A stretch of DNA of 64,000 nt from Silicimonas algicola (GTDB taxonomy: Bacteria; Pseudomonadota; Alphaproteobacteria; Rhodobacterales; Rhodobacteraceae): NCBI RefSeq assembly GCF_003148765.1, contig NZ_QGGV01000002.1, forward strand, positions 310,001 through 374,000, written 5' to 3'. The notes beneath the pieces are model-generated. The model saw nothing but the letters and a program-made list of their open reading frames with translations, made no database searches and was not told where the DNA came from. This document shows positions 33,827 through 37,534 of this stretch, piece by piece. Position 1 is the stretch's first letter; the number at the start of each line of letters is the position of its first letter. The position numbers were made by a program, and so were the translations under genes.

Positions 33827-34396
33827 TCAGAGACCCGATTTGCCCCGCGACAGCGCCGCGATTCCCGTGCGCGCCATCTCGTCCAGACCGAGGGGACGCA
33901 TGAGGTCGGCGAAGGCGTCGATCTTCTCGGAGGTGCCGGTGACCTCGAAGACGAAGCTTTCCAGCGTCGAGTCGACCACGTTGGCGCGGAAGATGTCCGC
34001 GAGGCGCAGCGCCTCGACCCGGCGCTCGCCCTTGCCGGAGACCTTGAAGAGCGCCAGCTCGCGCTCGACCGCCGGACCTTCGGTCGTGAGGTCGTGGACC
34101 TCGTGGACCGGGACGATGCGGCCAAGCTGGGCCTTGATCTGCTCGATCACCGAGGGCGTGCCGGTGGTGACGACGGTGATGCGCGACCGGTGCCCCTCGT
34201 GATCGACCTCGGCTACGGTCAGGCTCTCGATGTTGTACCCCCGGCCGGAGAAGAGGCCGATGACGCGCGCCAGCACGCCCGCCTCGTTCGCCACGATCAC
34301 CGCGAGGGTGTGACGTTCGACCGTCTGCACATTGGGGTCGCGCAGGTCGTAGGCGGAATGGCTGGAGGAGCCTTTCTTGATCTTCAAGGCGGACAT
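33827..34396 (-). CDS. ilvN: Acetolactate synthase regulatory (small) subunit
   Basis: A 189-residue small subunit that activates the catalytic subunit and gives valine feedback inhibition. An N-terminal ACT domain (HTLAVIVANEAGVLARVIGLFSGRGYNIESLTV) and the C-terminal ALS_ss_C domain (RRVEALRLADIFRANVVDSTLESFVFEVTGTSEKIDAF) are complete. It is the last gene of the ilvI-creA-ilvN minus-strand operon, nine bases after creA. Also called ilvH in systems paired with IlvI. Confidence 0.95.
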   Translation of the reverse strand: MSALKIKKGSSSHSAYDLRDPNVQTVERHTLAVIVANEAGVLARVIGLFSGRGYNIESLTVAEVDHEGHRSRITVVTTGTPSVIEQIKAQLGRIVPVHEVHDLTTEGPAVERELALFKVSGKGERRVEALRLADIFRANVVDSTLESFVFEVTGTSEKIDAFADLMRPLGLDEMARTGIAALSRGKSGL

Positions 34397-34405
34397 CTGT
34401 GCTTC

Positions 34406-34894
34406 CTAGTCCTGAGTGCCGGCCTGCCAGAGCGGAACGGTCGAGATCGACATCTTGGCCGATCCTTCCGTCAACTCGCGGGCGTGAGCGAGGTAGATGA
34501 GGGTCTGGTTCGCCTCGTCGTAGATCCGCTTGATGCGGATCGACTTGAGAACAAGGCTGCGGGACTGGCGGAACACCTCTTCGCCCTCTTTCGAGCGGTC
34601 GATGTCGCCGATGGTGATGGGGCCGGTCTGACGGCAGGCGATCGAGGCGTTCGAGGGATCCTCGAACCAGTTCCCCTGCGACAGCCGGTCGATGAGGCTG
34701 CGCTCGAAGTACGCGACGTGGCAGGTGACGCCGGGCACCTGCGGATCGTTGATCGCCTCGACGATGATGTCGTTGCCGACCCAGTCGACGCCGACCTTGC
34801 CGACCTCTTCTGCCCATGCCGCAAAGGGGGCGACAAGAAGCGTGGCGAGGGCAAGGACGCGACGCAAGGCGTGGGTGCCGAAGGACTTTCGCAT
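34406..34894 (-). CDS. creA: CreA family exported protein
   Basis: A 162-residue periplasmic protein of unknown function. A signal peptide (about 1-28, ending FAAWA) precedes the CreA domain: EEVGKVGVDWVGNDIIVEAINDPQVPGVTCHVAYFERS, then WFEDPSNASIACRQTGPI and VFRQSRSLVLKSIRIKRIYDEANQTLIYLAHARE. The ATG overlaps the ilvI TGA (ATGA), so it is translated together with the acetolactate synthase subunits, an unusual place for an exported protein. Confidence 0.9.
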   Translation of the reverse strand: MRKSFGTHALRRVLALATLLVAPFAAWAEEVGKVGVDWVGNDIIVEAINDPQVPGVTCHVAYFERSLIDRLSQGNWFEDPSNASIACRQTGPITIGDIDRSKEGEEVFRQSRSLVLKSIRIKRIYDEANQTLIYLAHARELTEGSAKMSISTVPLWQAGTQD

Positions 34895-36666
34895 CACACC
34901 AGCACCGCCCCGCCTTCCTTGATCGCGTTCCTGGTGTCCGCGTTCTCGCCGAGGATCATCTCGTTGTGCGGCTTGCCGGAGGGGATCATGGGGAAGCAGT
35001 TCTCGTGCTTCTCGACCAGGCAGTCGACGATCACGGGGCCGTCGTAGGCCAGCATCTCGCGGATGCCCTCGTCGAGGTCGGCGGGGTCGTCGATGCGGAT
35101 GCCCTTCGCGCCGAAGGCTTCTGCGAGCTTGACGAAATCGGGCAGGGCCTCGGACCACGAGTGGGAATACCGCTCGCCGTGCAGCAGCTCCTGCCACTGG
35201 CGGACCATGCCGAGGCGTTCGTTGTTCAGGATGAACTGCTTCACGGGCAGGCGGTACTGGATCGCGGTGCCCATCTCCTGCATGTTCATCAGCCACGATG
35301 CCTCGCCCGCGACGTTGATGACGAGCGCGTCGGGATGCGCCATCTGCACGCCGATGGACGCCGGGAAGCCATAGCCCATGGTTCCCAGGCCGCCGCTGGT
35401 CATCCAGCGGTTCGGCTCGTCGAAGTCCATGTACTGCGCGGCCCACATCTGGTGCTGTCCGACCTCGGTGCAGATGTAGCGGTCGGGGTGATCCTTCGTC
35501 AGCGCCTCGAGGCGCTGCACCGCGTGCTGCGGCTTGATGGTCTTGCCCTCTTGCCGGAACTTCAGGCAGTCGATGGCCTTCCACTCGGCGATCTGCTTCC
35601 ACCAGTCCTTCAGCGCCTTGCCATTCACGCGCGAGCCGCGCTCCTTCCAGACCGCCAGCACATCCTCGAGGACCGAGGCCACGTCACCGATGATCGGCAT
35701 CTCGACATGGATGACCTTGTTGATCGAGGACGGGTCGATGTCGATGTGCGCCTTGACCGAGTTGGGGCTGAAATCCTGGATGCGGCCGGTGATGCGGTCG
35801 TCGAAGCGGGCGCCGACGTTTATCATCAGGTCGCAGTCGTGCATCGCGAGGTTGGCCTCGTAGAGCCCGTGCATCCCCAGCATCCCGAGCCAGCCCTTGC
35901 CGCTGGCGGGATAGGCGCCGAGGCCCATCAGCGTCGAGGTGATCGGGAAGCCCGTCGTGTCGACCAGCTCGCGCAGAAGGCGCGAGGCCTTGGGGCCGGA
36001 GTTGATGACGCCGCCGCCGGTATAGAAGACGGGACGCTTCGCGCCCTCGATGGCCTCGACCAGCGCGCGGACCATGTCCGCGTCGCCCTTGGTGCGGGGC
36101 GCATAGTGCGAGGTCTTCGTGTCCTTGGGTGAGACATAGGTGCCGGTCGCGAACTGGACGTCCTTAGGAATGTCGACCAGCACCGGACCGGGACGGCCCG
36201 ACACGGCGACGTGGAACGCCTCGTGCAGCACGGGCGCCAGGCGGTCGGTCTCCTTCACCAGCCAGTTGTGCTTGGTGCAGGGCCGGGTGATGCCGACGGT
36301 GTCGGCCTCCTGGAAGCCGTCGGTGCCGATCATGAAGGTCGGAACCTGGCCTGTCAGCACGACGATCGGGATCGAGTCGAGTAGCGCGTCGGTCAGGCCG
36401 GTCACGGCATTGGTGGCTCCGGGCCCCGAGGTCACGAGGACGACGCCCGGCTTGCCGGTCGAGCGGGCATAGCCTTCAGCGGCGTGAACCGCGCCCTGTT
36501 CGTGCCGCACGAGGACGTGGCGAATCCGGTTCTGCTGGAAAATCTCGTCGTAGATCGGAAGAACCGCGCCGCCGGGATAGCCGAACACCACCTCGACGCC
36601 CTGGTCCTTCAGGGCCTCCACGACCATTCTCGCTCCGGTCATCTGCTTCTTGCTCATCGCGCCCAA
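34894..36666 (-). CDS. ilvI: Acetolactate synthase catalytic (large) subunit
   Basis: A 590-residue thiamine diphosphate enzyme that condenses pyruvate or pyruvate and 2-oxobutyrate, the first step to valine, leucine and isoleucine. The N-terminal FGYPGGAVLPIYD contains the catalytic Glu in HEQGAVHAAEGYAR, and the ThDP motif is GEASWLMNMQEMGTAIQYRLPVKQFILNN. Likely starts are 36666, MSKKQ at 36657, or MTGARM at 36642. It is expressed behind an attenuator. Confidence 0.96.
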   Translation of the reverse strand: MGAMSKKQMTGARMVVEALKDQGVEVVFGYPGGAVLPIYDEIFQQNRIRHVLVRHEQGAVHAAEGYARSTGKPGVVLVTSGPGATNAVTGLTDALLDSIPIVVLTGQVPTFMIGTDGFQEADTVGITRPCTKHNWLVKETDRLAPVLHEAFHVAVSGRPGPVLVDIPKDVQFATGTYVSPKDTKTSHYAPRTKGDADMVRALVEAIEGAKRPVFYTGGGVINSGPKASRLLRELVDTTGFPITSTLMGLGAYPASGKGWLGMLGMHGLYEANLAMHDCDLMINVGARFDDRITGRIQDFSPNSVKAHIDIDPSSINKVIHVEMPIIGDVASVLEDVLAVWKERGSRVNGKALKDWWKQIAEWKAIDCLKFRQEGKTIKPQHAVQRLEALTKDHPDRYICTEVGQHQMWAAQYMDFDEPNRWMTSGGLGTMGYGFPASIGVQMAHPDALVINVAGEASWLMNMQEMGTAIQYRLPVKQFILNNERLGMVRQWQELLHGERYSHSWSEALPDFVKLAEAFGAKGIRIDDPADLDEGIREMLAYDGPVIVDCLVEKHENCFPMIPSGKPHNEMILGENADTRNAIKEGGAVLV

Positions 36667-36683
36667 GTCCTTGTCCTGCGCAT

Positions 36684-36712
36684 AAAAAAGCCCCCGGGAG
36701 TGATCCGAGGGC
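36684..36712 (-). terminator. Attenuator terminator of the ilv operon
   Basis: On the minus strand an 8-base-pair stem (GCCCTCGG/CCGGGGGC) with a 7-base loop is followed by TTTTTT, 18 bases before ilvI. Its left arm shares bases with the antiterminator strand at 36710-36719. Confidence 0.85.
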
Positions 36713-36753
36713 GCATGGGAACCGTTATGGCGTCCGTTACCGGCCCATGCACC
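36710..36753 (-). promoter_or_regulatory. Antiterminator hairpin of the ilv leader
   Basis: GGTGCATGGG (minus strand, 36753-36744, across the end of the leader ORF) can pair over 10 positions with CCCATGCGCC (36719-36710, one G-U). CCCATGCGCC overlaps the terminator's left arm, so the two structures exclude each other: stalled ribosome, antiterminator; finishing ribosome, terminator. Confidence 0.75.
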
Positions 36754-36787
36754 ACCGTCCTACAAGTACGACTACGATCCGTTCCAC
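36737..36787 (-). CDS. ilv leader peptide
   Basis: A 16-residue ORF, MERIVVVLVGRWCMGR, starting at a GTG with AGGAG six bases upstream (GGAG-ACCTTC-GTG). Six of seven consecutive codons, ATC GTA GTC GTA CTT GTA, specify Ile, Val, Val, Val, Leu, Val, the end products of the pathway. A ribosome that lacks any of these charged tRNAs would stall here. This is a standard leader design for branched-chain operons. Confidence 0.85.
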   Translation of the reverse strand: MERIVVVLVGRWCMGR

Positions 36788-36810
36788 GAAGGTCTCCTAT
36801 CGGTCCCGGG

Positions 36811-36839
36811 ACACTATGCAGGAGGGTGGGGAGCGTCAA
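36811..36839 (-). promoter_or_regulatory. Promoter of the ilv operon
   Basis: TTGACG (36839-36834) and TAGTGT (36816-36811) on the minus strand are 17 bases apart. Transcription would begin near 36804, 17 bases before the leader GTG. Confidence 0.7.
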
Positions 36840-36889
36840 CCGCCAAATTTCCATTTCTTGCGTGGCGGCGGCACCTCGCGCAACTTTTA

Positions 36890-37534
36890 TCAGAAGGTGC
36901 CGGTGCCCTGCAGGACGCCGTGCTCGAGCGCGTAGCGCGTCAGACCGGCTGTGGAACTGATCCCCAGCTTGCGGCGGATGTTCTTCCGATGCGTCTCGAC
37001 CGTGTGGACGCTGATGTCGAGGCTGTCGGCGACCTCGCGGTTCGAGCGGCCCTGCGCGAGCTGGAGAAGGATCGTCTGCTCGCGCGAGGTCAGCGGTTCG
37101 CGCCCGTCCGCGATCTTCTTCGGCGAGAGCTGCGACTTGGCGCCGGTGCAGAGATAGGTCTCGCCCCGCATCACGGCGTCGATAGCGATCTTGATCTCGT
37201 CCGTGGGCACGTCCTTCAGGACATAGCCCTTCGCGCCGTGCGCGAGCGCCGTCGAGATGTATTCGGCGCTGTCGTGCATCGACAGGATCAGGATGCGCAT
37301 GTCGGGACAGCGCTCGAGGATCAGTTCGGTTGCGGCAAGCCCGGTGAGGCCGGGCATGTTGAGGTCCATCAGCACCACGTCGGGTCTCATCCTTTCGGCC
37401 GCCTCGACCGCCGCGCGCCCGTCCGGCGCGGTGCCGACGACTTCGAGGTCGTCGTAGGTGTCGAGGATGGCTTCGATCCCCTCGGCCACCATCGGATGGT
37501 CGTCGGCGATGAGGACGCGGACAGGTGCGGTCAT
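36890..37534 (-). CDS. NarL/LuxR-type response regulator
   Basis: A 214-residue two-component regulator. The receiver domain has DDH near residue 11, phosphoacceptor Asp57 in VVLMDLNMPG and Lys in GYVLKDVP. The C-terminal LuxR HTH is LTSREQTILLQLAQGRSNREVADSLDISVHTVETHRKNIRRKLGISST. It overlaps the upstream kinase by ATGA. Both are divergent from the TRAP transporter genes, so it most likely controls them. Confidence 0.93.
   Translation of the reverse strand: MTAPVRVLIADDHPMVAEGIEAILDTYDDLEVVGTAPDGRAAVEAAERMRPDVVLMDLNMPGLTGLAATELILERCPDMRILILSMHDSAEYISTALAHGAKGYVLKDVPTDEIKIAIDAVMRGETYLCTGAKSQLSPKKIADGREPLTSREQTILLQLAQGRSNREVADSLDISVHTVETHRKNIRRKLGISSTAGLTRYALEHGVLQGTGTF

Follow-up and report, generated by a model that had tools for sequence, protein, structure and literature searches.

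A probable ribosome-mediated attenuator of ilvI in Silicimonas algicola and related leaders before Bcr/CflA-type efflux pump genes

Results

The ilvI locus and its leader region

The window, a 64,000-nucleotide stretch of the Silicimonas algicola genome (contig NZ_QGGV01000002.1, positions 310,001 to 374,000), carries on its minus strand ilvI, which encodes the large subunit of acetolactate synthase, followed by a CreA-family gene and the gene for the small subunit (Table 1). The CreA-family gene probably belongs to the same operon as ilvI; in 80 relatives, a tblastn search of the sequence downstream of ilvI, which in six of them is shorter than 400 nt, found no CreA-family gene. Upstream lies a LuxR-type response regulator gene, confirmed by Pfam, and the gap between its stop at 36890 and the ilvI ATG at 36657 (minus strand) is occupied by the element described here. 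An earlier note on this DNA had read in this gap a promoter, a GTG-started 16-residue ORF with six Ile/Val/Leu codons, and a six-U terminator before ilvI; all of them are found where it placed them, on the minus strand.

The RNA is expected to start near 36804. The leader ORF runs GTG GAA CGG ATC GTA GTC GTA CTT GTA GGA CGG TGG TGC ATG GGC CGG TAA, and the Gly codon GGA (36758-36760) stands directly after the Ile/Val/Leu run, as it does at the same place in relatives. The end of the ORF supplies the left arm of a stem, stem A, within which sits a short hairpin around the stop codon, hairpin S. Stem A and the terminator have three nucleotides in common in the window, 36710-36712.

Several of these parts, taken singly, are at chance level. 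A strict consensus promoter scan of the window leader returned 0 sites, a terminator scan found 1 against 0.4 expected, which alone is no more than chance, and the leader fold has no exceptional stability (z -0.62; 53/200 shuffles were equally good). The element stands above chance because it is conserved among relatives.

Table 1. The ilvI leader and operon genes in the window
Feature	Position	Strand	Description
ilvI leader element	36839-36684	minus	promoter, Shine-Dalgarno, GTG ORF, stem, terminator
-35 element TTGACG	36834-36839	minus	
-10 element TAGTGT	36811-36816	minus	spacer 17 nt; relatives' consensus TAATGT
Shine-Dalgarno AGGAG	36794-36798	minus	of the leader ORF
Leader ORF MERIVVVLVGRWCMGR	36737-36787	minus	GTG start, 16 residues, stop UAA
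Control codons ATC GTA GTC GTA CTT GTA	36761-36778	minus	codons 4-9, six consecutive Ile/Val/Leu
Stem A left arm GGUGCAUGGG	36744-36753	minus	codons 12-15, ORF end; proposed antiterminator
Stem A right arm CCCAUGCGCC	36710-36719	minus	
Hairpin S, CCG-GUAA-CGG	36734-36743	minus	last codons, UAA stop and following bases
Intrinsic terminator, 8-bp stem GCCCUCGG/CCGGGGGC	36684-36712	minus	hairpin 36712-36690, six U to 36684
ilvI, acetolactate synthase large subunit	34894-36657	minus	Pfam TPP_enzyme domains; regulated gene
CreA-family gene	34406-34894	minus	PF05981, 166 bits; between ilvI and small-subunit gene
ilvH/ilvN, acetolactate synthase small subunit	33827-34396	minus	PF10369 and ACT domains

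Conservation and codon use among ilvI leaders

We compared 81 ilvI loci, namely the window and the best 80 of 594 related loci, to whose ilvI genes that of the window is 80-86% identical. A leader ORF of the same type, 15-16 residues long, is present in 74 of the 81, so that the expectation of a conserved ORF among relatives, raised in the earlier note, holds. The calling rule required Ile/Val/Leu codons and an end of the form [MV][GD][RLQG], with the Shine-Dalgarno sequence deciding between start codons. Codon conservation is likewise borne out, five positions being Ile/Val/Leu in 67-73 of the 74 leaders under a rule that itself favours such ORFs, and the peptide ends in RMGR in most (R in 70, M in 73, G in 72 and R in 70 of 74). 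All 74 leaders have the motif TTGAC 45-70 nt ahead of their start, compared with 7/74 control windows (scan within 90 nt), and a Shine-Dalgarno-like sequence is present in 72/74; the leader thus has a conserved promoter and ribosome-binding site of its own, as expected of an attenuator. Seven loci have no leader by the rule. One, L041, is truncated by a contig end; by eye, the leader of L073 is divergent, those of L071 and L080 are degenerate, L027 retains the terminator alone, and L028 and L075 show no leader parts.

A charging sensor is expected to use rare codons at its control positions. Across the 74 leaders, valine is encoded by GTA in 115/208 cases (55%), as against 136/3389 (4%) in ilvI of the same loci, leucine by CTA in 41/97 (42%) as against 54/3411 (1.6%), isoleucine by ATT in 41% as against 12%, and glycine by GGA in 34% as against 5.6%; P values for this bias are too small, because the leaders share ancestry. 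In the window, three of four leader Val codons are GTA, compared with 0 of 52 in its own ilvI, a bias that indicates which tRNAs the leader probably reads. In 74 of 81 loci, then, ilvI is preceded by a short ORF rich in codons for the operon's product, as an attenuator would have it.

These regularities bear on the proposal that the ORF is accidental and that the terminator alone matters, insulating after the upstream response regulator gene. Such a proposal would accommodate the folds described below, where the terminator forms in most of the ribosome states, but it leaves unexplained the constant ORF length, the Ile/Val/Leu positions, the rare-codon bias and the promoter upstream, all recurring in 74 leaders, and we regard it as very improbable.

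Pairing and covariation of the stems

Stem A pairs GCGCAUGGG with CCCAUGCGC in most leaders and GGUGCAUGGG with CCCAUGCGCC in the window. In an alignment of the 74 ilvI leaders (A1), pairing is kept in 99.1% of cells for stem A, 94.6% for hairpin S and 94.0% for the terminator. Changes on both sides occur in 8 of the 18 pairs of the joint structure, a number reached by 0 of 500 shuffles, although kin sequences can exceed shuffles without structure; each of the three pairs of hairpin S is changed on both sides in one relative. The signal is weaker in a mixed alignment of 24 rows (A4), with 5/16 pairs, reached by 2/500 shuffles, and the terminator alone gives no signal beyond shuffles on A4 (137/500). 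An intrinsic terminator lies between leader and first gene, again as in an attenuator. Taken together, the ORF, its codons, the covariation and the promoter with its Shine-Dalgarno sequence lend comparative support to the central proposal of the earlier note, an Ile/Val/Leu leader attenuator of ilvI.

The overlap of stem A, the proposed antiterminator, with the terminator is the weakest point of that proposal. Stem A does begin in the end of the ORF and overlap the left arm of the terminator by 3 nt in the window, but among the 74 ilvI leaders the overlap ranges from 0 to 4 nt (0 nt in 4 leaders, 1 in 11, 2 in 33, 3 in 25 and 4 in 1). In six of 14 leaders of pump genes, introduced below, it amounts to 4-6 nt.

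Folding with ribosome states

To represent ribosome states, the footprint was held single-stranded during folding. Over the 74 leaders, the two basal pairs of the terminator have a mean probability of 0.91 when the ribosome stands at the stop and 0.60-0.66 with codons 5-7 in the A site, where the stalled states also held all upstream RNA single-stranded and the stop state the footprint only, so that the states are not strictly alike. The mean is 0.97 with codon 8 in the A site and 0.26 without a ribosome. Basal pairs exceed 0.5 in 49-54 of 74 leaders stalled at codons 5-7, in 73/74 at codon 8 and in 74/74 at codon 9. In 13 pump leaders, they stand at 0.88 in the free RNA, 0.74-0.77 when stalled at codons 5-7 and 0.91 at the stop. 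In the window leader the values are 0.99-1.00 whichever of codons 4-10 occupies the A site, 1.00 at the stop and 0.40 without a ribosome. Some free folds pair the Shine-Dalgarno region with the right arm and U tract of the terminator.

The ensemble over 74 leaders therefore leans in the expected direction, and the window leader shows no equilibrium switch: its two hairpins coexist, sharing 3 nt, and its terminator is at least 0.98 in the ribosome states tested. Competition between the hairpins is limited to the base of the terminator. For the competing hairpins envisaged in the earlier note the folds make no clear case: the stems overlap at the base, and in the window at equilibrium the two form together. 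Antitermination there would need stem A to fold first, denying the terminator its base.

The same coexistence in the window folds would suit a different role for stem A, that of a pause or timing hairpin which keeps ribosome and polymerase in step, with readthrough arising through kinetics or some other, unseen structure. The rhizobial-type leaders L082, L212, L213 and L215, in which several nucleotides part stem A from the terminator, fit this role as well. A pausing role is harder to reconcile with the entry of the stem A right arm into the terminator left arm in 70/74 ilvI and 13/14 pump leaders, and we consider it rather unlikely, though the most serious of the alternatives.

A model for attenuation of ilvI

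We consider it very likely that the element is a ribosome-mediated transcription attenuator of ilvI, of a known kind. The leader probably turns on the synthesis of isoleucine, valine and leucine when these run short. The model draws on the observed parts and their conservation, together with the codon bias and the compensatory changes; the RNA start, the ribosome stall, and the sufficiency of losing 2-3 basal pairs to stop termination are what we infer beyond these. Transcription would begin near 36804 and a ribosome would load at AGGAG/GTG, to read six Ile/Val/Leu codons, which include four for Val, three of those being the rare GUA. With ample charged tRNA, the ribosome would arrive at the UAA within hairpin S and cover the left arm of stem A; the full terminator would then form, and RNA polymerase would halt before ilvI. 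When charged tRNA(Val/Ile/Leu) is scarce, the ribosome would stall upstream, stem A and hairpin S would fold first, and stem A would capture the basal 3 nt of the terminator left arm, allowing the polymerase to read through.

Comparable systems have been reported. Attenuation of Caulobacter crescentus ilvIH by the ilvL leader ORF has been described (PMC4117421), and on that description the likeness extends to an alphaproteobacterial host, a leader ORF with Ile and Val codons ahead of the acetolactate synthase genes, and a rho-independent terminator. Sinorhizobium meliloti ilvIH is listed as a cis element with reference to Vitreschak et al. 2004 (PMC2573895), whose predictions of alphaproteobacterial ilvIH and ilvB leaders are cited also in PMC1273637; as conveyed by these citing papers, the predictions share gene, principle and bacterial class with the window. 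The cysS leader uORFC-8-2 of Rhodobacterales (PMC8632094) is likewise a proposed ribosome-mediated attenuator and from the same order, but differs, as described, in its cysteine codons and in the gene that it precedes. The window element is real and ordinary in kind, one more ilv attenuator, and the comparative case for it is clean.

Related leaders before efflux pump genes

A covariance model built from the 74 ilvI leaders only (R1) was searched against 385 alphaproteobacterial genomes, and the matched loci were inspected; further, weaker matches in G022, G168 and G073 lie outside this set. Thirty genomes gave matches with E up to 0.1. Five belong to the window's family, with matches before ilvI; in eleven others (L091-L101), all outside that family, the match lies just before one MFS transporter, with E from 6e-16 to 1.6e-4. 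The matches in the remaining 14 genomes (best E 0.0046-0.092) were taken as chance, being mostly bare terminators by eye; none of the 14 has ilvI in its locus, and the downstream gene was examined in four.

The three transporters tested (L082, L093 and L096) match TIGR00710, Bcr/CflA efflux, above cut-off. Pump leaders encode peptides such as MHILIVVVGERRLDR, MTVTTVVVGAWRLDR and MNTGVVLVGSRRMDR; a clean run is missing from those of L100 (MYLSNTAGVGARRPGR) and L101 (MSIRIVSQYVWRAVL), and L097 has VFVV only. Codon bias in 13 pump leaders is milder than before ilvI, with GTA in 9/47 Val codons as against 12/368 in the genes for the pumps, of which one could not be located. In 12 pump-leader genomes, the eleven and G107, a leader of the ilvI type was not seen within about 420 nt before ilvI. 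We found no description of the pump leader in the open-access literature. Other alphaproteobacterial ilvI genes are preceded by leaders of different sequence with terminators, at L083 (1501-1624, minus strand), L218 and L220 (MSLLIVPCAPNEGLA, MNGILVLCWRGDRAA, MNDQNSHRAILVVGSAPGTA).

A joint model (R2) includes the pump leaders and is therefore no independent test. At E up to 0.01 it matched 16 of the 385 class genomes, five before ilvI and eleven before pumps. In a phylum-wide search it matched 30 of 398 genomes, comprising 24 own-family ilvI loci, two ilvI loci and one pump locus in family f174, and three loci (L214, L216 and L217; E 0.003-0.009) with neither ilvI nor pump, which we rejected; G636 carries a further match (E 0.0013) outside the inspected set. 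The window leader scores 84.5 bits with R1 and 94.4 bits with R2, a match by construction as it is a training row of both. In the genome of the window, the ilvI leader is the sole full R2 match; a second, partial one (E 0.10) resembles a terminator. Three of 30 pump homologues from the window's family carry the leader, and in these three genomes other leader types precede ilvI in L218 and L220, with none seen in L219.

Atu_C8 and the reach of the leader family

At the gathering threshold, Rfam reports nothing in the window leader. The window reaches 21.8 bits (E 0.048) with RF02502, the Rhizobiales sRNA Atu_C8, below the gathering score of 50, and is accordingly not assigned to that family; mir-976, the other hit at E up to 5 on 36600-36950, was rejected as lying on the opposite strand. 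Over 190 class genomes, RF02502 matched 3, one above cut-off; the hits in G092 look like a bare terminator and were dismissed. In L082, L183 (a Rhizobium etli plasmid), L184 (a Phyllobacterium plasmid) and L215 the model reaches 95-105 bits upstream of a pump gene, and in L212 and L213 it reaches 97-101 bits upstream of ilvI, so that matches to the Atu_C8 "sRNA" precede both kinds of gene. As in the window, RF02502 has a Val/Ile/Leu-rich ORF with RMG(R/K), the stem GCGCAUGGG/CCCAUGCGC at the leader end, and a terminator; unlike the window, it has a longer inner hairpin and several nucleotides between stem A and terminator. Atu_C8 is the rhizobial version of this leader, before ilvI and before pumps. 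A literature search on AtuC8 found no paper.

The listing of this rhizobial relative as an sRNA suggests that a short RNA was seen there, and raises the alternative that the leader acts mainly in trans through its terminated product, be it an sRNA or the 16-residue peptide, after the manner of the S. meliloti trp leader. That leader, as reported in PMC7298713, offers a precedent, and the strong conservation of the peptide end RMGR could be read in the same sense. The conservation of RMGR is, however, explained by stem A, the right arm of which is equally conserved, and joint-model matches with E up to 1e-3 precede genes of two kinds, pumps as well as ilvI; action mainly in trans thus appears improbable to us.

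Returning to attenuation in cis, we give about equal weight to belief and doubt in a broader proposal: that one attenuator lineage serves ilvI and a subfamily of Bcr/CflA-type pumps on chromosomes and plasmids, that the pump would be induced by ribosome stalling on the Val run, and that Atu_C8 would be the terminated form. Inducing causes could include scarcity of charged tRNA(Val/Ile/Leu), inhibitors of the cognate synthetases or of acetolactate synthase, and ribosome-targeting antibiotics. If the proposal is true, a sensor for biosynthesis also serves as a drug sensor. In alphaproteobacteria, a leader peptide has been tied to multidrug efflux before, by another mechanism, in the report on trp of S. 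meliloti (PMC7298713). What specialists may not expect is the connection with pumps and Atu_C8, a connection whose function is predicted; it would tie an Rfam sRNA family and plasmid-borne pump regulation to an amino-acid sensor that is well understood, and it points to possible pump inducers.

Plasmid-borne pumps and history of the leader

Nine plasmid records were fetched of 30 carrying a related pump, and six of the nine have an R2 leader before the pump. The pump leader of Roseobacter denitrificans pTB1 (MTVKFVVVVSKRRMVR) scores 85.1 bits with R2, and R2 leaders also precede pumps in Phaeobacter piscinae and Leisingera caerulea. R2 scores are 31.6 bits for the Phyllobacterium plasmid and 28.0 bits for R. 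etli, in whose copy no short leader ORF is listed; the Pseudorhodobacter pump (L221) has no R2 leader. A betaproteobacterial pump leader was seen on the 3.2-Mb replicon of Burkholderia cenocepacia (L185 1800-1920, R2 71.9 bits). Before Bcr/CflA-type pumps of Agrobacterium pAt2 (L181 3824-3940) and a Mesorhizobium plasmid (L182 1824-1940), a TPP riboswitch occupies the place of the leader.

We placed the leader on a rapidly built tree of 51 pump proteins, whose rows with the leader were mostly chosen for it and whose leaderless rows are all of the window's family. Two changes suffice for the leader there, compared with 16.7 in shuffles. A single branch, with support 80, splits the leader and TPP rows from the leaderless rows. 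The pumps with TPP riboswitches fall inside a clade that otherwise bears the leader, so that one pump clade bears two unrelated RNA switches.

The leaders themselves have mean identities of 0.59 between pump leaders, 0.60 between pump and ilvI leaders and 0.67 between ilvI leaders, rhizobial and divergent rows excluded. Pump leaders grouped together in 0% of 200 bootstrap trees, yet a single pump clade is not rejected (p-AU 0.104). Five leaders of the rhizobial type, two before ilvI and three before pumps, form one clade with support 100/100, and this clade of mixed leaders suggests exchange between ilvI and pump genes. In Leisingera caerulea (L178 2481-5233), the pump with the leader lies near a chloramphenicol phosphotransferase of the CPT family and two GNAT acetyltransferases, on a plasmid typed as conjugative.
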